Positions 1 through 23,326 of a stretch of DNA of 64,000 nt are shown here, in pieces. The translations under genes and the position numbers were made by a program. Source of the stretch: Alphaproteobacteria bacterium (lineage in GTDB: Bacteria > Pseudomonadota > Alphaproteobacteria > Rhizobiales > GCA-2746425); the NCBI GenBank assembly GCA_024743215.1, contig JANSWZ010000012.1, positions 1 through 64,000 on the forward strand, given 5' to 3'. The notes beneath the pieces are model-generated. The model was given only the letters and a program-made list of their open reading frames with translations, was not told the origin of the DNA and ran no database searches. Each line of letters begins with the position of its first letter. Position 1 is the first letter of the stretch.

Positions 1-360
1 ACCAACCTGAACACCGGCTGCGATGTTGCCATTGCCGTCCTGTGTCAGGACTGAATTGTGGTTGGTACCAAACTGGCCAACACCGGCCTGATTGCCATTG
101 CCATTTTGAACGGTGTCGGCTGCATTGTTGATGCCGCTCTGACCGGTTGCTGCAACATTACCATTGCCGAACTGTTCGGTGATGGAGTTGTTGAACAGAC
201 CGTCCTGGAAAACACCGATCTGGTTTCCAACACCAATCTGACCACCACCGGCTGCATTGCCAAAGCCAAATTGTTCAATGTTGATACCATTGGCCAGTGC
301 TGGGGCCGAAAAGCTGGTGACGAGTGCGACTGCTGTTGCGATAAGGGTAAGGCGTTTCAT
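1..360 (-). CDS. Curlin-repeat (CsgA/CsgB-like) amyloid protein, 3' end outside the window
   Basis: The reverse strand reads 120 uninterrupted codons from ATG at 360 to the window edge, so the C-terminus is missing. Residues 1-23 form a signal peptide (MKRLTLIATAVAL core, cleavage after an ALA). The rest is Gly/Asn/Gln-rich, with a Q-x-G-x-x-N unit recurring about every 11 residues (QFGFGN, QIGVGN, QFGNGN, QSGINN, QNGNGN, QDGNGN). That is the half-repeat pattern of curlin subunits, which are secreted and self-assemble into surface amyloid fibres. AGGAGAG at 369-375 is a good ribosome binding site. Other csg genes would have to lie outside the window. Whether it is a major subunit or nucleator cannot be told. 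The family assignment is firm; fibre formation is inferred. Confidence 0.85.
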   Translation of the reverse strand, partial: MKRLTLIATAVALVTSFSAPALANGINIEQFGFGNAAGGGQIGVGNQIGVFQDGLFNNSITEQFGNGNVAATGQSGINNAADTVQNGNGNQAGVGQFGTNHNSVLTQDGNGNIAAGVQVG

Positions 361-623: not shown

Positions 624-872
624 CTAACGCTTGTTCTGCGGCAGATGTGCTGTGTCTTTCCGGCGGGAGTGACGAACAATTTGCAACAGCACCAGCGCAA
701 AACCAACCGCAAGACCGGCCAGAAGCAGATGAAACGGCGACTGGGCAATATGCTGCAGGGCCGACAGCACACCGAACTCGCCATGATGGCCGCTATGAGC
801 CATAGCTGGTTGCGCAATAACAATTGCTGCTGTGGACAGGGAAGTGGCGGAAAAAATTCTTTTAGTGGTCAT
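624..872 (-). CDS. Small His-containing membrane protein of the guanidine operon
   Basis: About 82 residues starting at ATG 872, chosen because AAAGGA lies about 10 nt upstream; a TTG further upstream is less likely. It overlaps the preceding His-rich gene by about 11 nt, so translation is probably coupled. An N-terminal signal/anchor (TTKRIFSATSLSTAAIVIAQ) ends near an AMA site and is followed by the cluster HSGHHGEFG. A single transmembrane segment (LLLAGLAVGFALVLLQIV) follows, then a basic tail. The layout recalls small membrane proteins near Ni/Co transporters, but I do not recognise the family. Position suggests a role in metal supply to the guanidine hydrolase. This is inference. Confidence 0.6.
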   Translation of the reverse strand: MTTKRIFSATSLSTAAIVIAQPAMAHSGHHGEFGVLSALQHIAQSPFHLLLAGLAVGFALVLLQIVRHSRRKDTAHLPQNKR

Positions 873-1353
873 GATGGTGATGTCCTTTTTCAATAATGTC
901 GGTTCGCTCGGAGAGCAGAGTTAAAAGATCGACGTCAGCCCGTTCGGTCAAAGACACATAGACAAAATTCATGGTCTCCCGTGCATCAACCATGGGACCG
1001 GGAAAGGGCAGATAAGCCAGTTCCCGCGAACCAAAGGCCGGTGAGGCTGTGCCAATCTGCCAGTTGGAAATGATCGTCGCATCCACCAGATTGAGCGTCA
1101 GCCCATCTGCGCCAGAACGCTGAAACGGAATTCCGGACAGGCGCAGATAGCTTGTCTTGTCTTCGGCCGTACGAAAGCCCTCCACAAAACTGCTCGACAG
1201 AACTTTTAACTGATCTGCATGAGCCGCATCGCTTTGGCCATGCACATGGGAATGCAGATGGTCTGCTTGGGCATGATTGTGCCCGACCCCGCCCATATCC
1301 TGAGCGTGATCGTGATGGTGGGTGTGGTCCGTATGTGAATGATGTTTGCTCAT
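862..1353 (-). CDS. Protein with histidine-rich ends, candidate nickel-handling protein
   Basis: 163 residues from ATG 1353, one base after the stop codon of the hydrolase gene (TAATATG). Residues 4-37 contain 14 histidines in HxH and HHH runs, and the last residues are GHHHHDH. Such tails bind Ni(II), Co(II) or Zn(II) in metallochaperones such as HypB, UreE and SlyD. The central ~100 residues (LKVLSSSF to LSERTDII) match no family I can name. In characterised guanidine hydrolase systems the HypA/HypB-like proteins GhaA and GhaB deliver nickel; neither is visible here. I infer that this protein may store or deliver nickel for the hydrolase. The coding call is strong; the role is a hypothesis. 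Confidence 0.72.
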   Translation of the reverse strand: MSKHHSHTDHTHHHDHAQDMGGVGHNHAQADHLHSHVHGQSDAAHADQLKVLSSSFVEGFRTAEDKTSYLRLSGIPFQRSGADGLTLNLVDATIISNWQIGTASPAFGSRELAYLPFPGPMVDARETMNFVYVSLTERADVDLLTLLSERTDIIEKGHHHHDH

Positions 1354-1354
1354 A

Positions 1355-2593
1355 TTACACCACATCAGGTCCGGCAGGAATGCTGACAGGCTTGTCGATG
1401 ATATGCTTATGCGACCCCATTTTGCCGTGAGAGACAAGCGTGCCCAGCACATCCACAATCACACGCGTTGCCAGCAGTGCCGTGATGTCAGAGCAATCAT
1501 AGGGCGGAGACACCTCAACCACTTCCAGACCGCAAATGCCTTCTTTCGCTACCAGCGAGACCAATTCAAGCGCTTCGCGGGGCAGAAAGCCGCCGGGTTC
1601 CGGCCAGCCTGTGCCGGGCACAAAGCCGCAATCCACACTGTCGATATCGAACGAGATATAGACAGCATCCGCGTCTTTCCACGCCAGTTCCAATGCCCGT
1701 GCTGCGGTTTCGGCCAAGCCCATTTCTTCCACATCGCGCATGGTGAAAATATTGGTGTTGCGCTTGCGTGCTTCCGTGACGCCTTCACGCGGCACCTGCC
1801 AACCACCGATACCAACCTGCACCAGATTGACCGCAGGCACATTCACCAGATCCGTTGCATGGAACCACGGTGTTGTGTGCATCCGTTCATCCAGATCCTT
1901 TTCCTGAATATCAATATGGCGATCAAAATGGACAATGCCGATGCGCTTGGAGGTACATTGCGCAATGCCGCGTACACAGGGAAAGCCAATGGAATGATCG
2001 CCACCGATCATGATCGGCAGCGCGCCAGACGATGCCACATGGCTGACAGCACGCGTAACCTGATCGAATGTCTTTTCAATATTGGCCGGAATGGTGAACA
2101 CGTCACCCACATCGCACAATGTCATCTGTTCACGCAGATCAACGCCCATCTCGTAATTGTAGGGTGTATAGAGCGCCGAAATTTTGCGAAGGGCCTGCGG
2201 ACCAAACCGTGTGCCGGGCCGATAGGTGGTGCCACCATCAAATGGAACACCAATGACAGCCGCGTCATAAGCGCCGACTGCCGTGACATCTTCAATGTAA
2301 GGTGCCTTCAGGAAGGTGTTGATGCCTGCATAATGTGGCAACTCACCGCGCGCAAAGGTGGGAATGGATTTATCTTCCAGGCAATCCGAACCGGTCAGTC
2401 CCATACGCAGGGCCCATTGTTTCTCTTTCTCCCAGGCCGCCGAAGGCAATTCAGCTTCCTTTTCCGCAGCTTTCCAGCCACGCATTTGCAGCTTGTCAAA
2501 ATCCGGATGGTGCTGATGGCGCGGCTTCGCCCTGCCGACATGGCCTCCCACCCGGCTGGCTCGTGATGGGCCTGTAGAGAATAGATCGAACAT
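1355..2593 (-). CDS. gdmH: Ureohydrolase-family guanidine hydrolase (GdmH-like)
   Basis: 412 residues from ATG 2593, with AGGAG about 7 nt upstream; the longer open frame runs back into the ATPase gene. Binuclear metal motifs of the arginase/agmatinase fold are present: GGDHS (197-201), HFDRHID (222-228, Arg replacing the usual Ala) and SFDIDSVD (314-321). A ~100-residue N-terminal extension, the HFDRHID variant, DLDERMHT and PEPGG resemble, from memory, the cyanobacterial Ni-dependent guanidine hydrolase Sll1077/GdmH rather than agmatinase. The reaction would be guanidine + water to urea + ammonia in the cytoplasm. The guanidine-I riboswitch heading the operon is independent support. Agmatinase or another guanidino hydrolase remains the alternative. 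No urease or urea amidolyase is seen in this window. Confidence 0.85.
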   Translation of the reverse strand: MFDLFSTGPSRASRVGGHVGRAKPRHQHHPDFDKLQMRGWKAAEKEAELPSAAWEKEKQWALRMGLTGSDCLEDKSIPTFARGELPHYAGINTFLKAPYIEDVTAVGAYDAAVIGVPFDGGTTYRPGTRFGPQALRKISALYTPYNYEMGVDLREQMTLCDVGDVFTIPANIEKTFDQVTRAVSHVASSGALPIMIGGDHSIGFPCVRGIAQCTSKRIGIVHFDRHIDIQEKDLDERMHTTPWFHATDLVNVPAVNLVQVGIGGWQVPREGVTEARKRNTNIFTMRDVEEMGLAETAARALELAWKDADAVYISFDIDSVDCGFVPGTGWPEPGGFLPREALELVSLVAKEGICGLEVVEVSPPYDCSDITALLATRVIVDVLGTLVSHGKMGSHKHIIDKPVSIPAGPDVV

Positions 2594-2606
2594 GGGTAGT
2601 CTCCTC

Positions 2607-3437
2607 TTAATTACGCAATTGCGACGCAAAGAGCTCACTTGGCTCCGGCGCTTTGTCTGTCGTGTTTTTGTTGAGTGGCAGATCGTAGGTAATCGTGGCC
2701 CCATAGGCCTCCGGATTATCCGGATCGTGGCGCACCTTGTCGAACACCAGCATGCGGGTGCCCAGTTTGAAGGCCTCTGAGATATCGTGCGTGACCATGA
2801 AAATGGTCATCGACATTTCTTCCCAAAGTCCGAGAAGCAAATCATGCATATCCACACGAATGCCCGGATCAAGCGCGCCAAAAGGCTCGTCCAGCAACAG
2901 AATTTTTGGGCGCTTTAACAAGGCCTGCGCAATAGCTAAACGTTGTTGCATTCCTCCCGAGAGCTGTGTGGGGAACCGGTCCTTTGCAGCAGCCAGACCG
3001 ATCTTTTCAAGTGTCTGGGCCACTGCATCGCGCGCGTCCAACCTGGATTGTCCAAACAAACGTCCGGTAAAGCCACCCGTTTCAAACTCGCTCGCCAGAA
3101 TGAGATTTTCTTCCACAGTGAGATGTGGAAACACGGAATAGCGCTGAAACACGATGCCGCGATCTGGCGTCGGTTCTGGCGGCAACGGCTCGCCATCCAG
3201 CAAAATGCGCCCATGGGTCGGCACTTCCTGACTGAGCAACAACCGCAAAAACGTAGACTTGCCACAGCCAGATGCACCAACAATGGTGCAGAATGATCCG
3301 GCATCAACGCTAAGGCTCAGTCGTTCCAGAACCCGGTTGTCATCATAATCCATCATGATGCCGCGTAACTCGATTTTCGGGATAACTGTCTCAGCCTCGG
3401 AAGTGTCGGGCGTGGAAGTGTCAAAAACGATGCTCAC
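2607..3437 (-). CDS. NitT/TauT-type ABC transporter ATPase of the guanidine operon
   Basis: 276 residues. Walker A GASGCGKS (54-61), signature LSGGM (159-163), Walker B ILLLDEPF (179-186) and an H-loop His near 217 place it with SsuB/TauB/NrtD ATPases. It powers import of the solute captured by the binding protein encoded two genes upstream. Its start overlaps the permease stop by 4 nt (ATGA), and the hydrolase gene follows after 13 nt. Homologous NitT-like transporters are commonly found under guanidine riboswitches. Substrate guanidine is inferred from context; carboxyguanidine or another guanidino compound is possible. Confidence 0.88.
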   Translation of the reverse strand: MSIVFDTSTPDTSEAETVIPKIELRGIMMDYDDNRVLERLSLSVDAGSFCTIVGASGCGKSTFLRLLLSQEVPTHGRILLDGEPLPPEPTPDRGIVFQRYSVFPHLTVEENLILASEFETGGFTGRLFGQSRLDARDAVAQTLEKIGLAAAKDRFPTQLSGGMQQRLAIAQALLKRPKILLLDEPFGALDPGIRVDMHDLLLGLWEEMSMTIFMVTHDISEAFKLGTRMLVFDKVRHDPDNPEAYGATITYDLPLNKNTTDKAPEPSELFASQLRN

Positions 3438-4255
3438 AGGCTTTCACCTCCCAAATGATGCCAGGGGAAGGCCCGTTTTGAGAGCAGCAGCAACAGCCGG
3501 TCAATTATGAAGGCCAGCAGCGTAATCCAGAACACGTAGGGCAGGATCACATCCATGGCCAGATAGCGCCGCACCAGAAAAATGCGGTAGCCAAGCCCGC
3601 CGGTGGAAGCTATCGCCTCGGCTGAAATCAAAAAGATCCACCCCGGCACAAGGCCAAGGCGGAGAGCGGTGATCAGGCGCGGCAGGGTCTGTGGCAGCAC
3701 CAGCCGCCAGATCATCTGCCAAACACTGGCCCCCAGCGTTTCCGCCTTGATGATCATTTCCCTTGGTATATCCATCACCACTTGTGCAATGGAGCGCACC
3801 ATCACAGGTGCAGTGCCAAGAACAATCAACATGATTTTCGAGGCTTCACCCAACCCGAAAACAATAAACAATATGGGCAGAATCGTAATGGGCGGGATCA
3901 GCGAAATGGTAGCCACAAAAGGTGCCAGACTGCTTCTGGCATGCGGAATAAAGCCAATGGCGATGCCGACAACCAGCGCAATGGTGGTCGCAATCCCCAT
4001 GCCGACACCAAGCCGCATCAGACTGTCAAACGTATCGGTCCAAAGCAGCAGATCACCAGAACGCTTGTCAGCAACAAATGCCATGCGCCAGAAGCTGGCA
4101 CCCATCGTTTCCAGCGACGGTAAAAGCTTGTCAGCAGGATTGTCCAGACGCCTGATATGACTGGCAACAACATACAGGAGCAGCACCGCTATAAAGGGCG
4201 TTGCCCCCATAAACAGCTTTTCCCGTCGTTGCAGTTTTCGGTTGATAATGCGCAT
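3434..4255 (-). CDS. NitT/TauT-type ABC transporter permease of the guanidine operon
   Basis: 273 residues with about six hydrophobic segments, the first at roughly residues 16-33 (FMGATPFIAVLLLYVVA). The motif ETLGASVWQMIWRLVLPQTLP is the EAA-type loop that docks onto the ATPase. It forms the inner-membrane channel with the ATPase encoded next (4-nt overlap). A 56-nt gap with a strong hairpin separates it from the binding-protein gene upstream. Substrate is inferred as for the rest of the operon. Confidence 0.87.
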   Translation of the reverse strand: MRIINRKLQRREKLFMGATPFIAVLLLYVVASHIRRLDNPADKLLPSLETMGASFWRMAFVADKRSGDLLLWTDTFDSLMRLGVGMGIATTIALVVGIAIGFIPHARSSLAPFVATISLIPPITILPILFIVFGLGEASKIMLIVLGTAPVMVRSIAQVVMDIPREMIIKAETLGASVWQMIWRLVLPQTLPRLITALRLGLVPGWIFLISAEAIASTGGLGYRIFLVRRYLAMDVILPYVFWITLLAFIIDRLLLLLSKRAFPWHHLGGESL

Positions 4256-4270
4256 GACAAATCCGCGTTG

Positions 4271-4295
4271 GTCCTGCCCCGAAACAGGGCAGGAC
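4271..4295 (-). other. Stem-loop between binding-protein and permease genes
   Basis: GTCCTGCCC (4271-4279) pairs perfectly with GGGCAGGAC (4287-4295) around a 7-nt loop. No T-run follows. Such intercistronic hairpins typically protect the upstream mRNA from 3' exonucleases and so raise binding-protein levels relative to the permease; partial termination is the alternative. Confidence 0.65.
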
Positions 4296-4311
4296 TTGTT
4301 GCGATCAGAGT

Positions 4312-5388
4312 TTACAGCGCGCCATCGGCGGCCATTTGCATGTAGCTGGTGTCAAAGCGCAGCTTCACATTGTCCGCATCACCGAAGACCGATCCATCGG
4401 GAAAGGCCACACCAACAAACTCAGCACTCGGCGCGCCTTCACCAAGAATGCCCTTGTCGAACAGGAACTCGGCCACGAATTTCATGGTGTTTGGCAATTC
4501 GGCAGATTGGGTAAAAGTCACCGCATCTGCAGGCGCATAGAACATTTCGGTGGTTGCCAATTGTGCGTCATATCCGGCCAGATCGGTTCCGGAGGCCACA
4601 GCCATGCTTTCGCGAGCAGCTTTGCCTTCGTCACTGTCGGAGGCAATCAAGGCCATGACTTCATACCACGCACCCGTTAATGCCTTGCCGAATGCGGGAT
4701 TGTCGGCCAGCGTTTCGGTGTTCACCATCATGACATCGATAATTTCGCCGGGAATTCCGGCACTGTCGAAAACCTTGGTGGCATTGGCCTGCGCTTCAAT
4801 TTCAGACAGAAGCGGGTTCCATGTCACCACAGCTGTCACATCATCCGTGGCGTAGGCGGCAATCATATCGGCATCTGAAGTGTTGACCACTGTCAGGTCC
4901 CGTTCTGAAAGACCCACTGTATCGAGCGCACGGGCCAGCAGATAATGTGACACCGACAGTTCCACCAGATTGACACTTTGGCCCTTGATGGCAGCAAGTT
5001 CGGTGGCATCCTTCAAGACAATGCCGTCATTGCCATTGGAAAAGTCGCCCACGATCAACGCCGTAGTGTCCACACCGCCACCAGCAGGAATGGAAAGCGC
5101 GTCCATATTTGTCATGGAACAGCCGTCAAATTGTCCCGCAGTATACTGGTTGATGGATTCCACATAATCGTTGATCTGAACGATATCGACGCTGATTTCG
5201 TATTTGTCAGCCCACTTTTTCATGATGCCGGAATCCGCCAGATAGCCCCATGGCATCCAGCCGACATAGATGGACCAGCAAACGCTGAATTCGGATTTCT
5301 CTTCTGCTACAGCATTGGTCATGCCGGTTGGCACCGCCAAAAGGCCAGCCACACACAATGCTTTGGCAAATGTCTTCAAGTTGGTCAT
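4312..5388 (-). CDS. NitT/TauT-type periplasmic binding protein of the guanidine operon
   Basis: About 358 residues. The start at ATG 5388 is set by AGGAG six bases upstream; another ATG at 5394 overlaps the ribosome binding site itself. A signal peptide (KTFAKALCVAGLLAVPTGM, cleavage near NAVA) directs it to the periplasm. The mature part (FSVCWSIYVGWMPWGYL, DGCSMTNMDAL, VVTWNPLLSEI) fits the nitrate/taurine/thiamine-precursor binding family. It is the first gene after the guanidine-I riboswitch, so it probably captures guanidine or a derivative. The several Trp and acidic residues near the N-terminus would suit a cationic ligand, but this is speculative. Confidence 0.88.
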   Translation of the reverse strand: MTNLKTFAKALCVAGLLAVPTGMTNAVAEEKSEFSVCWSIYVGWMPWGYLADSGIMKKWADKYEISVDIVQINDYVESINQYTAGQFDGCSMTNMDALSIPAGGGVDTTALIVGDFSNGNDGIVLKDATELAAIKGQSVNLVELSVSHYLLARALDTVGLSERDLTVVNTSDADMIAAYATDDVTAVVTWNPLLSEIEAQANATKVFDSAGIPGEIIDVMMVNTETLADNPAFGKALTGAWYEVMALIASDSDEGKAARESMAVASGTDLAGYDAQLATTEMFYAPADAVTFTQSAELPNTMKFVAEFLFDKGILGEGAPSAEFVGVAFPDGSVFGDADNVKLRFDTSYMQMAADGAL

Positions 5389-5439
5389 GCGCATCTCCTG
5401 TTTCGTGTTCGACCATCAGGCCGATTTGTAAGGAGTTTG

Positions 5440-5600
5440 GGCGCACAGACCGGGAGGAAGTTTGCGCGCGCAAACCTGTGCAGTATTCTCCCGGGTTTTT
5501 GTCCCGCCGTGTTACCGGGCTGTCTTGCCCGGCTTGCATCTCTCGGACCTGCGTCCGGCTGAATCGATCAACCGCACCGGAACCCTAGACGCGCTGCACA
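5440..5600 (-). promoter_or_regulatory. Guanidine-I (ykkC class) riboswitch and expression platform
   Basis: Read on the minus strand from about 5590, the leader contains the guanidine-I hallmarks in order: TCTAGGGTTCCG, then GGTCCGAGAGA, then ACACGGCGGGACAAAAACCC followed by GGGAGA, ending near 5487. These match the ykkC consensus from memory almost base for base. Downstream lie a perfect palindrome GTTTGCGCGCGCAAAC (5460-5475) and two overlapping pairing options: CTCCCGG (5488-5494, aptamer 3' end) with CCGGGAG (5450-5456), or GCACAG (5443-5448) with CTGTGC (5476-5481). The two would cross, so they could act as a switch. It controls the importer-hydrolase operon and should turn it on when guanidine binds. 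Confidence 0.93.
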
Positions 5601-5610
5601 TATCTGGTTT

Positions 5611-5626
5611 TGCAGGAACTATGCCA
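5611..5626 (-). promoter_or_regulatory. Candidate sigma-54 (RpoN) promoter of the guanidine operon
   Basis: The minus strand reads TGGCATAGTTCCTGCA, with GG and GC elements 12 bases apart as in -24/-12 promoters (consensus TGGCAC-N5-TTGCA). The predicted transcript would start near 5600, about 10 nt before the riboswitch core, which is a good fit. An inverted repeat TTCTCT (5645-5650)/AGAGAA (5660-5665) lies upstream and could bind an activator. This suggests nitrogen control in addition to guanidine sensing; a sigma-70 promoter is not excluded. Confidence 0.55.
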
Positions 5627-5743: not shown

Positions 5744-6955
5744 TTATTTTTCAGGCGATTCGCAGGCCGCCATGATACCGCGCAATTCAGCCAAACCACG
5801 CATCCGCCCCAGCAGCGGATAGCCCGGCATTCCACCTGCACCAATATCATGCAGAATCTCCTGCCCATGGTCCGGCCGCATCGGAATTTGCCAGTCGGCA
5901 CGGCCCGCCGCCTTGCGGGCCACCTGCTCACGCATCAACGCTTTCACTACGGAAACCATATCTGTATTGCCTTCAAGATGAGCGGCTTCGTAGAAGCTGC
6001 TGCGTCCTGTAACACTCGGGCCAGTCCGTCTTGTATTGCGCAAATGGACAAAATGAATGTGGCTGCCAAGCCGCTCAATAAACCCGGCACCATCAAAATC
6101 CTCAGCCACACCCAGCGACCCGGTACAAAAGGTAATACCGTTGGCCGGGCTGTCCACGGTCGACATCACATGGGCATAATCTGCCTCGGTTGACATGATG
6201 CGTGGAAGGCCCAGCAAAGAAAATGGCGGATCATCAGCATGGCAACAAAGACGCAAGCCAAGCTCTTCGGCCAACGGCACCACCTCGGCCAGAAAGTCTG
6301 TCAGATTTTTGCGCAATTGATCCGCTGAAATCCCGTGATAGGTTTGCAGCAATCCGCGAATATCTTCCAAAGTCCAATTATCATTAGCCCCAGGCAAACC
6401 GGCGACGATATTATTCTGCAAAGCGATTTTCTGGTCATCATCCATGGTTTGGAACAATTGGGCGGCGCGCGCCACAAATTCTGTGGGATAGCCTTCAGCA
6501 GCGCCATCACGCTCCAGAATGAACAACTCGAATGCCGCAAATTCATGAAGGTCGAAGCGCATTGCCGTACCGCCATGAGGCATTGGTGCACGCAAATCAG
6601 TACGGGTCCAATCAAGGATTGGCATGAAATTATAACAGATCGTCTGCAATCCACATGCGGCCAAATTGCGCATCGACTGGCGGTAGTTTTCAATATGGTT
6701 TTTGTAGTCGCCGGTTTGTGTCTTGATGGATTCAGATACAGGCAGGCTCTCCACCACGTCCCACAGCAAGCCGGAAGCATCCCCGTTGCGCCGCGTCGCA
6801 ATGGCAGTTTGCCGTTTCTCGATCTCGGCAATCGGCCAGACCATTCCTGGTGTCAGATGATAGAGAGCGGTTACAACGCCTTCCACCCCAACCTGCAGCA
6901 GATCATCAATGGTAATTGGGTCCACAGGACCAAACCAGCGCCAGGTTTGCAGCAT
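5744..6955 (-). CDS. uxuA: Mannonate dehydratase
   Basis: 403 residues from ATG 6955 with AAGG upstream; E. coli UxuA is of similar length. It dehydrates D-mannonate to 2-keto-3-deoxy-D-gluconate in hexuronate breakdown. Family signatures: YNFMPILDWTRTDL (108-121), CCHADDPP (237-244), FCTGSLG (276-282), HFVHLRN (301-307) and MRPDHGQEI (359-367), which supply the metal ligands of this TIM-barrel enzyme. It follows two oxidoreductase genes on the same strand after a 16-nt gap. A divergent GntR regulator, uxaC and uxuB complete the D-glucuronate branch; no KDG kinase or aldolase is seen in the window. Confidence 0.93.
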   Translation of the reverse strand: MLQTWRWFGPVDPITIDDLLQVGVEGVVTALYHLTPGMVWPIAEIEKRQTAIATRRNGDASGLLWDVVESLPVSESIKTQTGDYKNHIENYRQSMRNLAACGLQTICYNFMPILDWTRTDLRAPMPHGGTAMRFDLHEFAAFELFILERDGAAEGYPTEFVARAAQLFQTMDDDQKIALQNNIVAGLPGANDNWTLEDIRGLLQTYHGISADQLRKNLTDFLAEVVPLAEELGLRLCCHADDPPFSLLGLPRIMSTEADYAHVMSTVDSPANGITFCTGSLGVAEDFDGAGFIERLGSHIHFVHLRNTRRTGPSVTGRSSFYEAAHLEGNTDMVSVVKALMREQVARKAAGRADWQIPMRPDHGQEILHDIGAGGMPGYPLLGRMRGLAELRGIMAACESPEK

Positions 6956-6971
6956 AGTCTTGCCTTCTCTC

Positions 6972-8012
6972 TTATTTTCGGGAATCTGATGCTGCAAAGG
7001 GCAGCGCGGTATCAGCCATCAATTGAGCCTTCAAAGCCAGCTCCATAACCTTGAAGGCATGAGCCTGTGGCATGGCGGTTTCTGTTCGGTCACGAATGTC
7101 ATTGGCAAGGTTCTGGAAATAGGGATATCCCGCATCGGAACAGTCGATTTTCTCGCATCGGCTTCCATTCACCAGATAGAGGTGATCAATCCCGTCATCG
7201 CGCGCAACATCGACATATTTGCGCAATTCAATATAGCCCTCGGTACCCAGCAGGGTCAGCCGCCCATCACCCCAATTAGGCAGCGCATCGGGCGTGTACC
7301 AATCCACGCGAATATAACCATGAGCATTGGCACTGCGCAGTGCAATCTCGCCAAAGTCCTGAAGACCCGGATCATCCGGATTTGCATAATTGGCCGCAGA
7401 AGCAAGCGTCACTTCGGCATCGTCCGAGCCGGTAAAATATAAAAACTGGTCAATCTGATGCGAAGCAATGTCGCACAAAATGCCGCCATATTTCTCACGC
7501 TGAAAAAACCACTCTGGCCGTGTCGGCCGGTTGAGCCTGTGCGGCCCCAGCCCGACCGTCTGCACAACCCTGCCAATGGCTCCAGCCTGCACCAGTTCTG
7601 CAGCCTTGGTGACGCTGGCAACCTCGAACCGTTCTGAAAAATCCACCGACCAGATACGCCCTGTCTCAGCCACAGCAGCTTTGATATCAGCAAGTTGATC
7701 CAGACTGGTGCAGCCTGGTTTGTCGAGCATCACATCCTTGCCATGGCGCATTGCCTCAACAGCCAGTGCCGCGCGATCTGCCGGAACCGCCGCAATCAGG
7801 AACAGGTCAATCGATGGATCATCCAACAACCCAGAACGGTCCGAAAAACGTTTTGCATCTGGAAAGCGCTTGGTGAAACCTTGCAGAGTCGGTGGTTCGC
7901 CATCGGTCCACCAGCCAGCAAACTCACAGCCAATATCCAGCATGTTCTGCACCATGCCGTAAATGTGCCGGTGATCCAGCCCGATGGCCGCAAATCGAAT
8001 GGGATCAGTCAT
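6972..8012 (-). CDS. Gfo/Idh/MocA-family NAD(P)-dependent oxidoreductase
   Basis: 346 residues. The N-terminal Rossmann half begins FAAIGLDHRHIYGM and has the conserved Lys in LDKPG (the EKP motif of the family, here DKP). The C-terminal half has GGILCDIASHQID, whose His is typically catalytic. Its start overlaps the upstream oxidoreductase stop by 8 nt and the gene leads into uxuA. Such enzymes oxidise or epimerise sugars, cyclitols or uronate derivatives. The exact substrate is unknown; the operon suggests a uronate-containing sugar. Confidence 0.82.
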   Translation of the reverse strand: MTDPIRFAAIGLDHRHIYGMVQNMLDIGCEFAGWWTDGEPPTLQGFTKRFPDAKRFSDRSGLLDDPSIDLFLIAAVPADRAALAVEAMRHGKDVMLDKPGCTSLDQLADIKAAVAETGRIWSVDFSERFEVASVTKAAELVQAGAIGRVVQTVGLGPHRLNRPTRPEWFFQREKYGGILCDIASHQIDQFLYFTGSDDAEVTLASAANYANPDDPGLQDFGEIALRSANAHGYIRVDWYTPDALPNWGDGRLTLLGTEGYIELRKYVDVARDDGIDHLYLVNGSRCEKIDCSDAGYPYFQNLANDIRDRTETAMPQAHAFKVMELALKAQLMADTALPFAASDSRK

Positions 8013-9057
8013 GGGTTTTATCCAGTTCGGAAAGAGTTACAGCCCGCTCTGCGCGCGATGACAGCGCAAGCGCATCAATGAGGCGATGAACCGCAAGCGC
8101 CTCGCGTCCAGGCGCTATTGGCGGTCTGCCAGAGCGGATCGCGTCCGCAAAGTCTTCAATCACGGCCTGATGCCATTCATGCGTAAACGCCATTGGGTCC
8201 GCACCACCGCCACTGGCCATATCTTCGCCAATGGTCTCTGTGCGGCCATCCTGCCAATGCAATTCCAATTTTCCAGATTTCAGGCAAACAGACACATGTT
8301 CGCAATGCAGCGTGATGGATTCAGCCGCTCCGGGATAAGACGCTGTGCTCGCGGTCAATGATCCGATAGCCCCGCTTTCAAAGTCCAGCCCGGCGGTGAC
8401 AAAATCCTCCGCCTCCATACTATGCAACGCGCTGGTGCGTGCCATCGCCTGAACTTTTTTCACGGCACCCGTGAAGGACAGAGCCAAATCCATCGTGTGG
8501 ATAGCCTGTGAAATCAGAACGCCGCCGCCATCGCGCCCATAGGTCCCTCGCCCCGGCTCATCATAATAGGATTGCGCACGCCACCAGGGCACTGCAATTT
8601 CGGCAACCCGGATCGGTCCGGTATCACCTGAACCAAGAAGCGCCCGCAATTTCTGCGACACCTCACGCGCCCGGTGCTGAAACACAATGCCAAGGGTGAC
8701 ACCGGCAGCTTCACACTGTTCGACAATCGCACTGGCAGCTTTCCAGTCCCGCTCGATCGGCTTTTCCAGCAGGATATGTTTGCCGGCAGCAACCAGCTTG
8801 CCAATGATATCCGCCCTTGCATTGGGCGGTGTCGCCACAATCACAAAATCAATCGCAGCATCCCCGGCGATCTCGTCGACAGAATTGTAAATGCGCACAG
8901 AATCAACGGCGTCTGGCATATGTGCTTTAATGAAGGCTGCGGCTTTTCCAGCATCGCGGCTGCAAACACCGCGCAGGGTCAGACCCTTGGTATTTGCTTT
9001 GATCGCATTCAGATGCGTCGCGGCCACCATGCCCAGACCTATCATGGCCAAATTCAT
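8005..9057 (-). CDS. Gfo/Idh/MocA-family NAD(P)-dependent oxidoreductase
   Basis: 350 residues from ATG 9057 with GGGAGGG upstream. It has the classic dinucleotide site GLGMVAATH near residue 7, the LEKPI motif around residue 95 and GGGVLISQAIHTMD in the second domain. It is the first gene of the minus-strand uronate operon and is only distantly related to the next gene, so the two probably catalyse successive or different steps, such as oxidation and reduction at different carbons. The operator-like palindrome at 9148-9161 lies in its promoter region. Substrate unknown. Confidence 0.84.
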   Translation of the reverse strand: MNLAMIGLGMVAATHLNAIKANTKGLTLRGVCSRDAGKAAAFIKAHMPDAVDSVRIYNSVDEIAGDAAIDFVIVATPPNARADIIGKLVAAGKHILLEKPIERDWKAASAIVEQCEAAGVTLGIVFQHRAREVSQKLRALLGSGDTGPIRVAEIAVPWWRAQSYYDEPGRGTYGRDGGGVLISQAIHTMDLALSFTGAVKKVQAMARTSALHSMEAEDFVTAGLDFESGAIGSLTASTASYPGAAESITLHCEHVSVCLKSGKLELHWQDGRTETIGEDMASGGGADPMAFTHEWHQAVIEDFADAIRSGRPPIAPGREALAVHRLIDALALSSRAERAVTLSELDKTHD

Positions 9058-9186: not shown

Positions 9187-9954
9187 ATGGCGCAGCAATC
9201 TGAAGTTACACCGGGTGAACAGGCACTAAACGCGCAGCAACCGGACACTCGCTACCCTGAGATCGATCCGGCGCTGCCTGCCGGAAACCAGATTTTCAAT
9301 GTCCTGCAAGCCATGATCCTGACAATGGAACTGCCGCCGGGACAGGCCCTGTCAGAAGCGGATATAGCGACCAAATTCGGGGCTAGCCGGACACCGGTCC
9401 GCGAAGCATTGCAGAAATTGCGTGAAGCCCAACTGGTGATGACAAAGCCAAGCCGGGGCAACTTTGTAACAAGGCTTAACAAAAGCAAGATACTGGAAGC
9501 GCGTTTTCTACGGGAGGCACTGGAAGTGGCCGTTGTTGACCGACTGTGTGAAACCGGTCTGTCCGACGCATTTACAGCCAGCCTCCACGAAAATCTGAAG
9601 CGCCAGAAAAAGGCAATCAAGCGCCGCGACAATCAGGAATTCCGCCATCTCGATGATGCTTTCCACCTGACCCTTGCACGAGCCACCGATTATCCCCGCG
9701 TCGCCGATGTTCTGAAACGGGAGAAATTTCTGCTCGACCGGCTTCGGGTGCTGGCACAGCGCAGCAAATCCCACCAGAAAAGTCTGCTGCGGGAACATCA
9801 GAATATGCTCACCGCTATTCTTGAACGAGACCGAAAAACGGCAATCAGCTTGACCAGACAGCATTTGAATTCAGTGCTCGACACGCTGTCAGCACTGGGG
9901 CAAACACATGCCGACTATTTTGAACAAGACACCGCAACACGGATCCTTTTATGA
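9187..9954 (+). CDS. GntR/FadR-family transcriptional regulator of uronate genes
   Basis: 255 residues with GAGGAG upstream. The winged helix-turn-helix lies at about residues 55-80 (LSEADIATKFGASRTPVREAL) and an all-helical FCD ligand domain follows (FRHLDDAFHLTLA and REHQNMLTAI carry the expected acidic and His residues). It overlaps uxaC by 4 nt and faces the uxuA operon. By position it is the likely repressor of hexuronate catabolism, comparable in role to E. coli UxuR/ExuR. Inducer not known. Confidence 0.88.
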   Translation: MAQQSEVTPGEQALNAQQPDTRYPEIDPALPAGNQIFNVLQAMILTMELPPGQALSEADIATKFGASRTPVREALQKLREAQLVMTKPSRGNFVTRLNKSKILEARFLREALEVAVVDRLCETGLSDAFTASLHENLKRQKKAIKRRDNQEFRHLDDAFHLTLARATDYPRVADVLKREKFLLDRLRVLAQRSKSHQKSLLREHQNMLTAILERDRKTAISLTRQHLNSVLDTLSALGQTHADYFEQDTATRILL

Positions 9955-11342
9955 CGAACGCACCCATGGGCACGATCCATCTACCAGCTCACGCCGACAC
10001 CATCTACCAACACATTCGTGACATCCCGATTGTGTCCCCCCATGGCCATTGTGACCCGTCCTGGTTTGCCAAAAACACGGCATTCAGGGATCCTGCTGAA
10101 TTGCTGATCATTCCGGATCATTACGTGTTTCGCATGCTTTACAGTCAGGGCGTTCCGCTTGAAAGCCTTGGGTTGGGAACACCTCCAGAAGAGCGCGACC
10201 CAAGGAAGATTTTCAAGATTTTTGCAGAACACTGGAACCGTTTTCTGGGCACGCCCAGCCGACAGTGGCTCGAGCATACCTTTACCAATGTGTTTGGACT
10301 GACAGAACCACTGACGCCCAAAACCGCAGATCACTATTACGATCTGATTGATGCAAAACTGAAAACGCCGGAATTCCGGCCCAGAGCCTTGTTCGAAAGC
10401 TTTGGCCTGGAGGTTCTGGCCACCACCGATGGTGCACTGGATTCGCTTACCCATCACGCGGCCATCCAAAACAGTGACTGGCAGGGCCGCATCATTCCGA
10501 CCTTCCGCCCCGATACAGTTCTCAACCCGGCCTCGCCGGACTTCATCCCCCATATGCACCAATTGGCTGAAATGACGGGTGAAGACACTTCATCTTTCAA
10601 AAACTACCTGAGCGCTTTACGCCAATGCAGAGCAGCCTTCAAAGCAGCCGGCGCAACGGCCACCGATCACGCCATCACTGAAATCTATACAGAACAAATA
10701 TCTGATTCAGACATGCAGGCCTTGCTGCAAAAGGCCCTCAACGCACCTCTGGATCACGCTGAGGCAACGCTGTTTTACGGCCGCATGCTGATCGATATGG
10801 CGCAAATGTCGATTGATGATGGCCTTGTCATGCAGATTCATGCTGGCAGCTACCGTTCGACAAATCGAACCCTGTTCAAGCGCTTCGGAAATGATATGGG
10901 TGCCGATATACCCATCGCCGTCGATTGGGTGCGCGGTCTGGCGCCCCTGCTCAACAAGGTTGGCAACAATCCCGATCTGACCATAATTCTGTTCACGCTG
11001 GACGAGACCACCTATGCGCGCGAACTGGCTCCGATGGCTGGTCACTGGCCATGCCTGCGCCTCGGACCGCCCTGGTGGTTCCATGACAGTCTGAACGGTA
11101 TTGCGCGTTATTTTGATGCGGTGGTCGAGACCGCAGGCTATTGGAATCTGGCCGGGTTCAACGACGACACACGGGCGTTTTTGTCCATTCCGGCACGCCA
11201 TGATTTGTGGCGGCGCGGCGTTGCCACCCATCTGGGCACGCAAATCTCTCGCGGCCTGTTCGGCCAGTCAGACGCTTTGGAAATCGCGCGGCTTCTGACC
11301 CGCGATCTGGCGATCGATGCTTACCGTCTGAGAGGTGTATGA
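9951..11342 (+). CDS. uxaC: Glucuronate (uronate) isomerase
   Basis: 463 residues, close to E. coli UxaC. The amidohydrolase-superfamily metal site HGH occurs at residues 31-33 (IVSPHGHCDP), with HYYDLIDAKL, FRPDTVLNP, IAVDWVRG and WNLAGFNDDTR as further conserved stretches. It interconverts D-glucuronate and D-fructuronate (or galacturonate and tagaturonate). The start ATG overlaps the regulator stop (ATGA), and uxuB begins just after the stop. HGHCDP differs slightly from the HCHL form I associate with E. coli, suggesting a separate subgroup. Confidence 0.92.
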   Translation: MTNAPMGTIHLPAHADTIYQHIRDIPIVSPHGHCDPSWFAKNTAFRDPAELLIIPDHYVFRMLYSQGVPLESLGLGTPPEERDPRKIFKIFAEHWNRFLGTPSRQWLEHTFTNVFGLTEPLTPKTADHYYDLIDAKLKTPEFRPRALFESFGLEVLATTDGALDSLTHHAAIQNSDWQGRIIPTFRPDTVLNPASPDFIPHMHQLAEMTGEDTSSFKNYLSALRQCRAAFKAAGATATDHAITEIYTEQISDSDMQALLQKALNAPLDHAEATLFYGRMLIDMAQMSIDDGLVMQIHAGSYRSTNRTLFKRFGNDMGADIPIAVDWVRGLAPLLNKVGNNPDLTIILFTLDETTYARELAPMAGHWPCLRLGPPWWFHDSLNGIARYFDAVVETAGYWNLAGFNDDTRAFLSIPARHDLWRRGVATHLGTQISRGLFGQSDALEIARLLTRDLAIDAYRLRGV

Positions 11343-11343
11343 C

Positions 11344-12693
11344 ATGAAGCGTATTTTGCATCTTGGCCCCGGTAATTTTTTCCGCGCCCATCAAGCCTGG
11401 TATACGCACCACGCCAACGATTACGGAAATGCGGACTGGCAAATTACGGGTGTTTCGCTGAAAAGTAGCACCGCAAGAGACAGCCTTACGCCGCAGGACT
11501 GTGATTATACGCTGGTCATTAACAGTGTTGCTGACACAGATTATCAACGCATTTCCGTCATCGACAGAATTCTGGTCGGCCCTGAAGACCCGCAAGCTGT
11601 TATTGATTTGATTGCTGATCCCGCAACAGCAATTGTCAGTCTGACAGTGACCGAAAAGGGCTACCACATAGACGCCACAACTGGCCATCTCAACACCAGA
11701 AATCCTGATATTGCGGCTGAACTGTCGGACGGCCAGCCCCGCACGGCGATTGGCTTTCTGACCTTTGGACTACAAAAACGACAGCAGCAAAATGCAGATC
11801 CGATAACAATCATCAGCTGTGATAATCTGTCCGACAATGGCGCGACTTTGAAAAAGCTGGTGCAGGAATTCGATCAGGAAGCCAGTCGTAGCCTTCCCGG
11901 CTGGCTTGGCCTTGCAGATTGGCTGAAAAAATCAGTCACCTTTCCTGGCACCATGGTCGACCGAATTACGCCTGCAACCACGGATGCACTGCGCCAGGAG
12001 GTCCATCAAAAAGCCGGCTGGGCCGATGCATCACCGGTGGCAACCGAGCTGTTTTCAGAATGGATCATTGAAGATAGTTTTGCAGCAGAGCGGCCCGCCT
12101 GGGATCAGGCTGGTGCGCAGTTTGTGGATGATGTTTCCCCTTTCGAACACAGAAAGCTGCGGCTGCTGAACGGAGCCCATTCATTCCTTGCCTATGCCGG
12201 GCTTTACACCGGCCATACCTATGTTCATGAGGCGATTGCCGACACGGTGTTGCGCGCAGCAGTTGGAGAACTGATGCTGGAAGCAACCACCACACTGCCC
12301 GCAACCATGCAATCGGATGCTGCTGACTATTGTACGGAATTGATTGAGCGTTTTGCCAACCCGGCATTGAAGCATGAACTGGCGCAGATCGCCGGCGATG
12401 GCAGTCAGAAACTGCCAGTGCGAGTCCTGTCCACGATTGCCGACCGGCACAACAAAGGCACGGCTTCACCATGTGCTTCAGATACAATCGCCTATTGGCT
12501 GGTTTTCATTTATCAGCGCAGCGCAGCTGGCGCGGATATCAACGATCCGCTGGCAAAGCGCTTTGCTGAAATTCAGCAATCCTCTGATAACAGGCGTGAC
12601 AAGCTCACCGCCATTTTGCAGACATTGTCACCTGATGGCAGCCTTGATCAGAACAGAATTCTGGAGCGGGCAGAGACACTTCTGGACGCCTGA
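11344..12693 (+). CDS. uxuB: Fructuronate reductase (mannitol dehydrogenase family)
   Basis: 449 residues. ATG 11344 is preferred over an upstream GTG because GAGAGG precedes it by about 8 nt. The N-terminal GPGNFFRAHQA (8-18) is the NAD-binding start of long-chain polyol dehydrogenases; SLTVTEKGYH, SCDNLSDNG and KLRLLNGAHS are family stretches. It reduces D-fructuronate to D-mannonate, linking uxaC to uxuA. Tagaturonate reductase (UxaB) is the related alternative, but the presence of uxuA makes UxuB more likely. Confidence 0.9.
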   Translation: MKRILHLGPGNFFRAHQAWYTHHANDYGNADWQITGVSLKSSTARDSLTPQDCDYTLVINSVADTDYQRISVIDRILVGPEDPQAVIDLIADPATAIVSLTVTEKGYHIDATTGHLNTRNPDIAAELSDGQPRTAIGFLTFGLQKRQQQNADPITIISCDNLSDNGATLKKLVQEFDQEASRSLPGWLGLADWLKKSVTFPGTMVDRITPATTDALRQEVHQKAGWADASPVATELFSEWIIEDSFAAERPAWDQAGAQFVDDVSPFEHRKLRLLNGAHSFLAYAGLYTGHTYVHEAIADTVLRAAVGELMLEATTTLPATMQSDAADYCTELIERFANPALKHELAQIAGDGSQKLPVRVLSTIADRHNKGTASPCASDTIAYWLVFIYQRSAAGADINDPLAKRFAEIQQSSDNRRDKLTAILQTLSPDGSLDQNRILERAETLLDA

Positions 12694-19640: not shown

Positions 19641-19714
19641 CCAAAACCTGAACGCACCGACAAAAGCAATACACCCCGCCGCATGCGCGCGGGCAAACAA
19701 AGGAGATGTGTCTC

Positions 19715-22700
19715 ATGTGGCAATTCTGGGTAGATCGTGGCGGCACTTTCACCGATATCGTTGGACAGCGCCCGGATGGTGCATTGATGTCCCATAAATT
19801 GCTGTCCGAGAACCCGGAGCAATATCCTGATGCAGCCGTGCAGGGCATTCGCGACCTTTTGCAGCTCGACAGCATCCAACCCATTCCAAAGGGCAGCATT
19901 TCCGCTGTCAAAATGGGAACAACCGTTGCCACAAATGCACTTTTGGAGCGCAAGGGGGATCGCACGCTTCTGCTGATCACCGAAGGTTTCAAGGACTTGT
20001 TGCGAATCGGCTATCAGACCCGCCCCAAATTGTTTGATCTTCACATTGTCATGCCGGAACTGCTTTACAGCGATGTTGCAGAAGTACCTGAACGGCTGGA
20101 TGCGGACGGAAAAGTCATTCGCCCGCTTGATCTGGTCACGGCAAAATCCGCGCTGCAGGCCGCCTATGATCGCGGTCTGCGTGGCGTCGCCATTGCCTTC
20201 ATGCATGCCTATCTCAATCCAGATCATGAATTGCAGGTCGCTGAAATCGCCCGGCAGATCGGCTTTACACAAGTGTCCACCAGCCATGAAACCTCCAAGC
20301 TCATCAAGCTTGTGGGTCGTGGCGATACGACAGTGGTCGATGCCTATCTCTCCCCGATTTTACGGCGCTACGTCAATCAGGTCGCTGACGCGCTGGATCT
20401 GGAAGGCGGCGCCTGCGAGCGCTTGTTTTTCATGCAGTCCAACGGCGGCTTGACCGATGCGGGCCTGTTTCAGGGTAAGGATGCCATCTTGTCCGGCCCT
20501 GCAGGCGGTGTCGTTGGCATGGTCAAAACCGCGCATCAAGCCGGGTTTGAAAAACTCATCGGCTTCGATATGGGTGGCACATCCACGGATGTCTGCCATT
20601 ACGCGGGAGATTACGAACGCTCCTTTGAAACCGAGGTGGCTGGCGTACGTATGCGAGCACCCATGATGAACATCCACACGGTGGCCGCAGGCGGTGGCTC
20701 AATCCTGACCTTCCGCAATGGGCGCTATCAGGTAGGACCGGAAAGCGCAGGTGCCAATCCCGGCCCGGCCTGCTATCGCCGTGGCGGCCCGCTCACCGTG
20801 ACCGATTGCAATGTCATGCTCGGCAAGCTCAACCCGGACCATTTCCCACCTGTGTTCGGCCCCAATGCCAACGCGCCATTGGACAAGAATGTCGTGGCGC
20901 AAAAGTTCCAGGAACTGGCGCAGGAAATTGCCAATGCCACCAACGCGGACCCGTTGAACCCGGAAGAAACCGCTGAAGGGTTTTTACGCATTGCTGTTGA
21001 AAACATGGCCAATGCCATCAAGAAAATCTCAGTTCAGCGCGGCTATGATGTCACCCAATATACGCTGAATTGTTTTGGCGGCGCCGGTGGTCAGCACGCC
21101 TGCCTCGTTGCTGATGCATTGGGCATGACAAGCGTATTCCTGCACCCCTTTGCTGGCGTTTTGTCTGCCTATGGGATGGGGCTTGCTGAAATCCGCGCCC
21201 TACGGGAAGTGCAATTTGAACAGCCTGTTGCCAGGCAAGCCGAGGCCGTGTCTGTGCTGTCCAATCTGGCCAAAGAGGCCAGCGATGAAGTGGCAGGTCA
21301 AGGCGTTGCAACCGACAAGATTACCGTCCTGAAACGCGCTCATCTAAGATATGCCGGGTCTCACCAATCGCTTGAAGTTCCCTTCAGCACCGAAGCAGAA
21401 ATGCGCACCAGTTTCGATGCAGCGCATATCACCCGATTTGGTTTTGCCTCTCCCGGCCGCGCACTCAACATTGAAATGCTCAGTGTAGAAGCCATTGGCG
21501 GCGCGGAAGATGTTACAGAGCCGGATAGTGCAGGCCCTGAAGCCGAAGCCAAACCAGCCGACCAGATACCCCTTTACGGCAAAGGGGCATGGCAGAATGT
21601 TCCACTATACAGGCGCGAAGCTCTGGCTGTTGGGCAAGTGGTGACGGGCCCGGCCATCATCACAGAACCCACAGGAACCAACTCTCTGGAACCGGGCTGG
21701 CGCGCCCGTGTCGATACATTTGGCAACCTGATTTTGGAGCGCTTTGAGGCCAATGCACGCGAGGCTGCCATCGGCACAGATGCAGACCCGATCATGCTAG
21801 AAGTCTTCAACAACCTCTTCATGTCAATTGCCGAGCAGATGGGCGCAACCCTCGCCAATACGGCCTATTCGGTCAACATCAAGGAGCGGCTGGACTTTTC
21901 TTGTGCCCTGTTTGATGCCAGTGGCGATCTCGTCGCCAATGCGCCCCATGTGCCGGTGCATCTGGGGTCCATGGCTGACAGCGTGCGGACCGTTGCAAGA
22001 CTGAATGCCGGCACCATGAAACCCGGCGACAGCTTCATGCTCAATGCGCCGTTTAATGGCGGTACTCATCTGCCCGATGTCACCGTGATTACGCCGGTTT
22101 TCGACAGTGTTGGCAGCGACATCTTGTTTTATGTCGGCTCACGCGGTCACCATGCCGATATTGGCGGTCGCACCCCCGGGTCCGCGCCACCCGACAGCAA
22201 GCATATTGATGAAGAAGGCGTGCTGATCGATAATTTCAAACTTGTTGATCAAGGTACTTTGCGAGAAGAAGCCACGCAAGTGCTGCTCGCATCTGGGCGC
22301 TATCCGTGCCGCAACATCGACCACAATATGGCTGATCTGGAAGCGCAGATTGCTGCCAATGCCACAGGCATCCGTGAAGTGCACCGCATGATCAACACCT
22401 TCGGGCTGGATGTGGTGCTGGCCTATATGCGCCATGTGCAGGACAACGCAGAAGCCTCGGTCAAACAGGTTATTGGCCGGTTGAAAGATGGCTCCTACAC
22501 CTATCCGATAGACAGTGGCGCACAGATCAAGGTGACGATCAGCGTCGATCATGACAAACAGGAAGCCGTGCTCGATTTCACCGGCACCTCTGAACAAGAC
22601 ATTTACAATTACAACGCGCCACGATCCATCTGTGGTGCGGCCGTGCTGTATGTCTTCCGAACACTGGTCGGCAGTGACATTCCACTGAATGAAGGTTGCC

Positions 22701-23326
22701 TGAAACCACTGAAAATCATTGCGCCGGAAGGCACCATGATCAATCCGCTTTATCCAGCGGCCGTGATTGCCGGCAATACGGAAGTCAGTCAGGCCATTGC
22801 CAATTGCCTGTATGGCGCACTCGGCGCATTGGCTTGCTCTCAAGCAACAATGAACAATTTTGTCTGGGGCACGGACACTTTCCAGAATTATGAGACCATT
22901 GGCGGCGGCACCGGCGCAGGGCCTGGCTTTGATGGCGCAAGTGCCGTGCAGTCGCATATGACCAATACCCGCATGACAGACCCAGAGGTGCTGGAACAAC
23001 GCTTTCCGGTCCGTGTTGAGGAATTTGCCATTCGCGACGGCTCTGGTGGCCCCGGCAAATGGTCCGGCGGCAATGGCATCAGGCGTCGCCTGCGCTATCT
23101 GGAACCGGTCATCGTCACGGTACTGACCTCACACCGCATCACTCAACCCTTCGGCGTGAATGGCGGCGCACCGGGTGCCTCAGGCGAAAACTGGGTCATT
23201 CGCAAGGACGGCACCAGAGAACGCTTGAAAAGCAACGATGAAGCAGCGCTATTGGCCGGAGATCAGTTCGAAATGCTTACCCCTGGCGGCGGTGGCTGGG
23301 GGAAGAGCATAGGGTCCAGCCATTAG
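19715..23326 (+). CDS. ATP-dependent 5-oxoprolinase (fused HyuA-HyuB type)
   Basis: 1203 residues from ATG 19715, with AGGAG nine bases upstream. The HyuA half shows ASKHA motifs VDRGGTFTD (6-14), GPAGGVVG and [11 protein letters not shown]; the HyuB half has [25 protein letters not shown] and [11 protein letters not shown]. The full-length fusion, rather than separate hyuA and hyuB, is typical of eukaryotic-type 5-oxoprolinase (ATP + 5-oxo-L-proline to L-glutamate). N-methylhydantoinase or acetone-carboxylase-like activity is less likely. With the cyclase-like gene and TRAP transporter it forms a coherent uptake and ring-opening pathway. Confidence 0.87.

Follow-up and report, generated by a model that had tools for sequence, protein, structure and literature searches.

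The 64,000 nucleotide stretch analysed here (the window: positions 1 to 64,000 of contig JANSWZ010000012.1, assembly GCA_024743215.1, from a bacterium of the Rhizobiales) carries on its minus strand an operon in which the gene for a guanidine hydrolase of the GdmH type is followed by a short gene, named HisX here. HisX is shown below to be the constant partner of one, mainly alphaproteobacterial, clade of GdmH enzymes. It likely acts on GdmH, and it is probably a dedicated nickel-delivery or maturation factor of this enzyme, standing in, within that clade, for HypA/HypB. The arrangement of riboswitch, importer and GdmH is that of an operon of known kind, which, judging by its sequence, is a guanidine assimilation unit. 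It is composed of the following features:

5486 to 5599, minus strand: guanidine-I (ykkC) riboswitch aptamer (RF00442, 77.3 bits)
4312 to 5388 (alternative start 5394), minus strand: substrate-binding protein (SBP) of the importer (TIGR03427, PF09084)
3434 to 4255, minus strand: permease of an ATP-binding cassette (ABC) importer, NitT/TauT type (PF00528, 70 bits)
2607 to 3437, minus strand: ABC ATPase, NitT/TauT type, with a GTG start (PF00005, 116 bits)
1355 to 2593, minus strand: GdmH-type guanidine hydrolase (PF00491, 260 bits)
862 to 1353, minus strand: HisX (P0002), 163 residues, a His-rich tail and a conserved core of about 110 residues
624 to 872, minus strand, overlapping the 3' end of HisX: mini-HupE (P0003; name also coined here), 82 residues, sub-threshold matches only

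The first-pass annotation had described a complete operon spanning 624-5626. The operon is real and correctly placed, and riboswitch, importer and hydrolase are all present, but "complete" does not hold as described: the minus-strand genes at 1353-862 and 872-624 had gone unmentioned, and the known nickel-loading proteins are absent, an undescribed gene pair being found instead.

The pairing of HisX with GdmH was evaluated in a scan of genome contigs with GdmH, of which the best 80 of at least 566 relatives were kept, a choice that biases the sample towards close relatives; six loci from whole genomes were added, for a total of 86. A HisX gene, recognized by a hidden Markov model of the core, follows GdmH in the same orientation in all 80 of these best scan loci and in all six whole-genome ones. 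In 74 of the 86, HisX starts within -11 to +14 bases of the GdmH stop, the farthest being at 298, where starts were picked by a rule favouring nearness to that stop. By organism name, the 80 scan loci are presumably alphaproteobacterial, except L047, a metagenome-assembled genome. The contig of L047, named Anaerolineae, features a GdmH of alphaproteobacterial type along with HisX, by transfer or by mis-binning.

Three overlapping draws of genomes were also searched. GdmH and HisX are present in the same 7 genomes among 61 relatives (GdmH threshold E <= 1e-100), and in the same 7 among 398 evenly drawn Pseudomonadota (E <= 1e-90); these thresholds are strict, and a distant GdmH lacking HisX would escape counting. 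Among 385 genomes of the class, GdmH is found in 11, all with HisX, and HisX in 13. Together, the draws contain 22 distinct genomes with strong GdmH matches, the window's included: HisX stands beside GdmH in 22 out of 22. Six of these genomes are already among the 86 loci and two share their GdmH with L043 and L053, so that distinct loci total 100, all with HisX. The two HisX-only genomes of the class draw are both broken. In G775 (L169), positions 8021-8936 hold the riboswitch and an SBP gene whose match stops at residue 147 and whose end is overlapped by a HisX frame; GdmH, permease and ATPase were not found in this contig, which ends nearby, and either an internal deletion or an assembly fault is indicated. 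G557 retains an 81-codon fragment of HisX. Eleven plasmid records carry GdmH relatives, and 7 of them also have HisX, as a "hypothetical protein" where annotated. Six loci (L054, L067, L071, L073, L088, L093) feature riboswitch, GdmH and HisX with no such importer within about 10 kb on each side: HisX, therefore, goes with the enzyme and not with the transporter.

HisX is composed of a His-rich N-terminal tail, followed by the conserved core. The window protein has no match in Pfam, NCBIfam or PDB sequences. For 23 members of the family, the best E values are at chance level (0.097 in Pfam; 0.055 in NCBIfam: five members, nickel/cobalt efflux transporter); one member matches UreE in NCBIfam with E 0.19, and a profile built from 73 HisX rows gives a best E of 0.33 against PDB sequences. 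Literature searches found no description of a HisX-like protein; it may be mentioned in the original GdmH paper or its supplements. The core is predicted by AlphaFold2 with a pLDDT (predicted local distance difference test) of about 96; when the folds of two HisX models were compared with PDB structures, the predicted likenesses were weak (COMMD-like, tudor and Pur-alpha rows), none of them convincing. In the 73 sequences, histidines average 16.6 per protein outside the core and 1.3 within it, while Asp65, Pro105 and Pro118 of the core are invariant (73 out of 73). The tail may change side: in L050 (HisX at 11169-11570) it is C-terminal instead of N-terminal. The ratio of non-synonymous to synonymous substitution rates (dN/dS), calculated against a relative from the same genus, is 0.052 for HisX, 0.029 for GdmH and 0.277 for P0003.

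GhaA and GhaB of Synechocystis resemble HypA and HypB. According to published accounts, the characterised enzymes of the GdmH family use nickel, GhaA/GhaB are the dedicated nickel-loading proteins of GdmH in Synechocystis, and genes for such hydrolases are often found in operons with hypA and hypB (PMC8390497). Metformin hydrolase is likewise a nickel ureohydrolase, whose operon includes hypA, hypB and hupE. In the window's operon, P0002 and P0003 show no match to the HypA or HypB family, and a pattern search of the 86 loci, run without a positive control, found no HypA/HypB. Searches of whole genomes with Pfam and NCBIfam models, which gave matches in control genomes, covered 13 of the 22 GdmH genomes. 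Five of these have HypA over cut-off (at least one of the matches, that in G019, being partial) and four have HypB; eight, the window's genome among them, have neither. The window's genome has no match to HypA (PF01155) and three matches to the hypB model, all below cut-off. Weak hypB-model matches, such as UreG and other GTPases would give, are found in all 13 genomes; those lying near the two urease genes of the window's genome look like UreG. Where over cut-off, HypA/HypB genes are remote from GdmH: in G014 the distance is about 256 kb, and elsewhere they sit on a different contig.

The gene found behind HisX in the window, P0003, has a signal peptide and one helix, as judged by eye. It matches DUF6732 (E 0.0022) and HupE_UreJ (E 0.023), both below threshold; against PF04955 it scores 14.6 bits, under the gathering cut-off of 23. 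By recount, 38 of the 86 loci have a related gene in this position: 7 a HupE-like gene and 31 a small open reading frame (ORF) similar to P0003. A first script had labelled 6 as HupE, 39 as small and 41 as none; 8 of the 39 proved too distant, unrelated-looking or longer (one, L074, is a HupE). In a pattern test at fixed start distance, 37 of the 86 positions behind HisX scored positive, versus 10 of 715 behind other genes. Full-length HupE follows HisX in three loci (PF04955, 157-190 bits). Seven small ORFs other than P0003 gave no match over Pfam cut-off; since the likeness of these ORFs to HupE is faint, the label "mini-HupE" is a judgement by eye.

Nickel delivery is proposed because HisX has a His-rich tail, enzymes of the GdmH family require nickel, HypA/HypB are missing, and HupE-like genes occur next to HisX. 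The core of HisX would dock on GdmH, and the flexible tail would bring Ni2+ to the active site without HypA/HypB; mini-HupE, or HupE, would aid the entry of nickel into the cell. A wider proposal, possible though short of probable, is that HisX founds a new family of metallochaperones, encoded by one gene and GTPase-free, with a GdmH-specific core and a movable His tail, which took the place of HypA/HypB a single time, in the ancestor from which the alphaproteobacterial guanidine hydrolases descend, and which works with a miniature HupE. Microbial use of guanidine is a recently opened field, for which a constantly paired, undescribed His-rich gene is a concrete nickel-loading candidate for the alphaproteobacterial enzymes. 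HisX could help guanidine hydrolases produced in foreign hosts to reach full activity, and its study may reveal a way for a nickel enzyme to mature without a GTPase.

A number of observations weigh against nickel delivery. The binding of nickel by HisX, its contact with GdmH and the requirement for it are inferred. No His or Cys is conserved in the core over the 73 sequences. The tail is nearly absent from HisX of G558 and short in L047, L049 and L055 (6-7 His in all), and is therefore not strictly required. No HupE-like gene is found behind HisX in 48 of the 86 loci, and, of 8 small ORFs scanned, only P0003 and the one of L050 show sub-threshold HupE matches. Far from GdmH as they are, the HypA genes of five of the 13 genomes and the HypB genes of four of those could in principle serve it. 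Helpers may not be needed at all, since the guanidinase of Nitrospira inopinata is active after chaperone-free expression, with low metal occupancy (PMC11410670). The GdmH relatives on the other four of the 11 plasmid records, which are actinobacterial, have no HisX within 6 kb; these enzymes are only 54-60% identical, and one of them, L129, lacks the diagnostic Trp. Finally, to regard the two HisX-only genomes as remnants is an interpretation. The nearly tailless HisX of G558, the loci lacking HupE, the genomes bearing HypA/HypB and the chaperone-free activity of the Nitrospira enzyme thus leave room for a role in assembly or regulation: HisX might be a structural or regulatory subunit of the GdmH hexamer, or a factor for its folding or assembly, to which the His tail is secondary. 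Such a role would fit a core that is universal in the family and has no conserved metal ligand, with a tail that can be almost lost. It is nonetheless unlikely: the GdmH enzymes of Synechocystis and Nitrospira are active, with no HisX-like gene mentioned for them in the accessible texts, and the strong His enrichment points to nickel, as do the HupE genes that follow HisX in part of the loci.

A very His-rich tail of variable length, in a genome which also encodes urease, another nickel enzyme, might instead belong to a buffer or store, protecting the cell or pooling nickel for GdmH and urease, without inserting the metal. Hpn of Helicobacter is a protein of this type. For HisX this appears rather improbable, as storage would have no need of a core with three invariant residues, nor of being tied so strictly to GdmH: in the three draws (61, 398 and 385 genomes), every intact HisX gene seen was accompanied by GdmH. 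It is more improbable still that the operon is an ordinary one, where GdmH obtains its nickel from the urease chaperones UreE/UreG or without any helper, HisX being a passenger of no importance. The urease alpha gene is indeed present in 6 of the 7 GdmH genomes tested, and the sub-threshold hypB-model matches close to the two urease genes in the window's genome may well be UreG. Yet HisX is kept in 86 out of 86 loci, at the low dN/dS reported above, and G035 keeps it with no urease alpha or HypA/HypB over cut-off, although the GdmH of that genome is perhaps decaying. Delivery of nickel to GdmH, or its maturation, is therefore the role we favour for HisX.

His-rich nickel proteins already known include UreE and HypB, with their tails, and Hpn. 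HisX shares with them a flexible His-rich tail and a nickel context, and matches none of the three in searches of Pfam, NCBIfam or PDB sequences. As for whole operons, that of Synechocystis has the same guanidine-I riboswitch, ABC importer and GdmH (Sll1077, with the same diagnostic residues); it contains GhaA/GhaB where the window's operon, devoid of HypA/HypB-like genes, contains HisX and mini-HupE. The guanidinase locus of N. inopinata also combines a guanidine-I riboswitch and a GdmH-family enzyme, with no known nickel chaperones; this organism is described as lacking them, and nickel loading of its guanidinase is called unclear (PMC11410670). That locus has an APC permease and, in the accessible text, no reported nickel chaperone, whereas the window's operon has an ABC importer and HisX. 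The HypA/HypB contrast rests on papers, as the loci compared here include no cyanobacterial or Nitrospira ones. The operons for metformin/dimethylguanidine hydrolase of Aminobacter and Pseudomonas share with the window's a nickel ureohydrolase and a HupE gene behind it; their enzyme, however, has two subunits, is distant from the window GdmH (138 bits or less) and is accompanied by hypA and hypB, HisX being unmentioned in the accessible parts of those reports.

The closest solved structures to the window's ureohydrolase are those of the guanidine hydrolases from Synechocystis (7esr/7oi1, 535 bits) and N. inopinata (9fek, 522 bits), the next one scoring 175; in the parts that align, the identity of GdmH is 64% to 7esr and 61% to 9fek. 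Guanidinases are defined by Thr, His and Trp residues (Thr97 and Trp305 in Sll1077; PMC11410670). These residues, located by motif, fall in GGTTYRPG, FDRHID and PGTGWPEPGG of the window enzyme; in the 86 loci, PGTGW is present in 86, TTYR in 85 and FDRHxD in 86. A tree was built from 29 rows: the window enzyme, those of 20 loci out of the 86, both guanidine hydrolases with PDB structures, four relatives from actinobacteria and an outgroup of two, leaving out a distant GdmH paralogue from the window's own genome. The 21 HisX-bearing rows, window included, form a clade (100/99), which branches with Sll1077 at less than full support (91/92); E. coli SpeB and 1gq6 lie outside at 100/100, being the only two outgroup rows, on very long branches. 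The enzyme thus groups with Sll1077 and the Nitrospira guanidinase, and not with E. coli agmatinase or proclavaminate amidinohydrolase, in keeping with the GdmH-like ureohydrolase named in the first-pass annotation. By its identity of 61-64% to characterised enzymes, it would hydrolyse guanidine to urea and ammonia. The same annotation had expected a urease or urea amidolyase encoded elsewhere: two urease alpha genes over cut-off (979 and 830 bits) are found on other contigs of the same genome, and the two ureases would complete the route to ammonia.

The proposed sensing, import and hydrolysis of guanidine agrees with the covariance-model match, the placement of the enzyme and its diagnostic Thr and Trp, which together support it. 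RF00442 (Guanidine-I) is the only Rfam family with a match over gathering in the whole window, according to cmscan: the match, at 5599-5486 on the minus strand, has a score of 77.3 bits (gathering 63; E 5e-12), covers model positions 1-107 of 107, and is slightly longer than the 5487-5590 first assigned to the riboswitch. A model built from the window aptamer and five relatives (five of the 86 loci are among its six sequences) detects a riboswitch upstream of GdmH, in the same orientation, in 81 of the 86 loci; L080 has a fragment, cut at the contig start. The other four are L047, L052 and L064, whose contigs start near GdmH, and L020, from G035. At 6467-7429, L020 has a GdmH homologue from which some 110 N-terminal residues are missing, with HisX behind it and neither riboswitch nor importer nearby; this N-terminally short GdmH may be decaying.

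In the predicted fold of the window's leader (minimum free energy -89.5, z -2.81), CCGGGAG at the 3' end of the aptamer pairs with a downstream CTCCCGG, and the AGGAG preceding the SBP start is hidden, which suggests control of expression through a competing structure. The stretch from the aptamer to the SBP gene has no terminator-like site, and no sigma-70-like promoter is found upstream of the riboswitch, up to 5800; across the region, promoter- and terminator-like sites occur in chance numbers. By analogy with its family, the riboswitch would permit expression upon binding guanidine.

The SBP scores 563.6 bits (cut-off 333.9) against TIGR03427, the SBP of a "putative urea ABC transporter"; the best NCBIfam matches of permease and ATPase, the taurine permease TauC and the nitrate ATPase ntrCD, are below cut-off. 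Despite the urea name of TIGR03427, the riboswitch context points to guanidine as the substrate, which the importer would carry into the cell. Upstream of GdmH, among the 86 loci, SBP, permease and ATPase are present in 76, 77 and 79, respectively.

Directly upstream of the riboswitch, the mannonate dehydratase gene UxuA (5744-6952, minus strand; PF03786, 357 bits) is followed by two ORFs, oxidoreductase-like by eye (6972-9057), a GntR/FCD regulator (9187-9951) and a gene of mannitol dehydrogenase type (11335-12690): this looks like a region for hexuronate utilisation. On the opposite side, the start of a gene for a secreted protein with curlin repeats, similar to CsgA (1-360, minus strand; PF07012, 35.4 bits), runs off the left end of the window. 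Farther away, a fused hydantoinase A/B of the oxoprolinase type (1206 residues; 19706-23323, plus strand) adjoins a gene for a tripartite ATP-independent periplasmic (TRAP) transporter of the DctM type.

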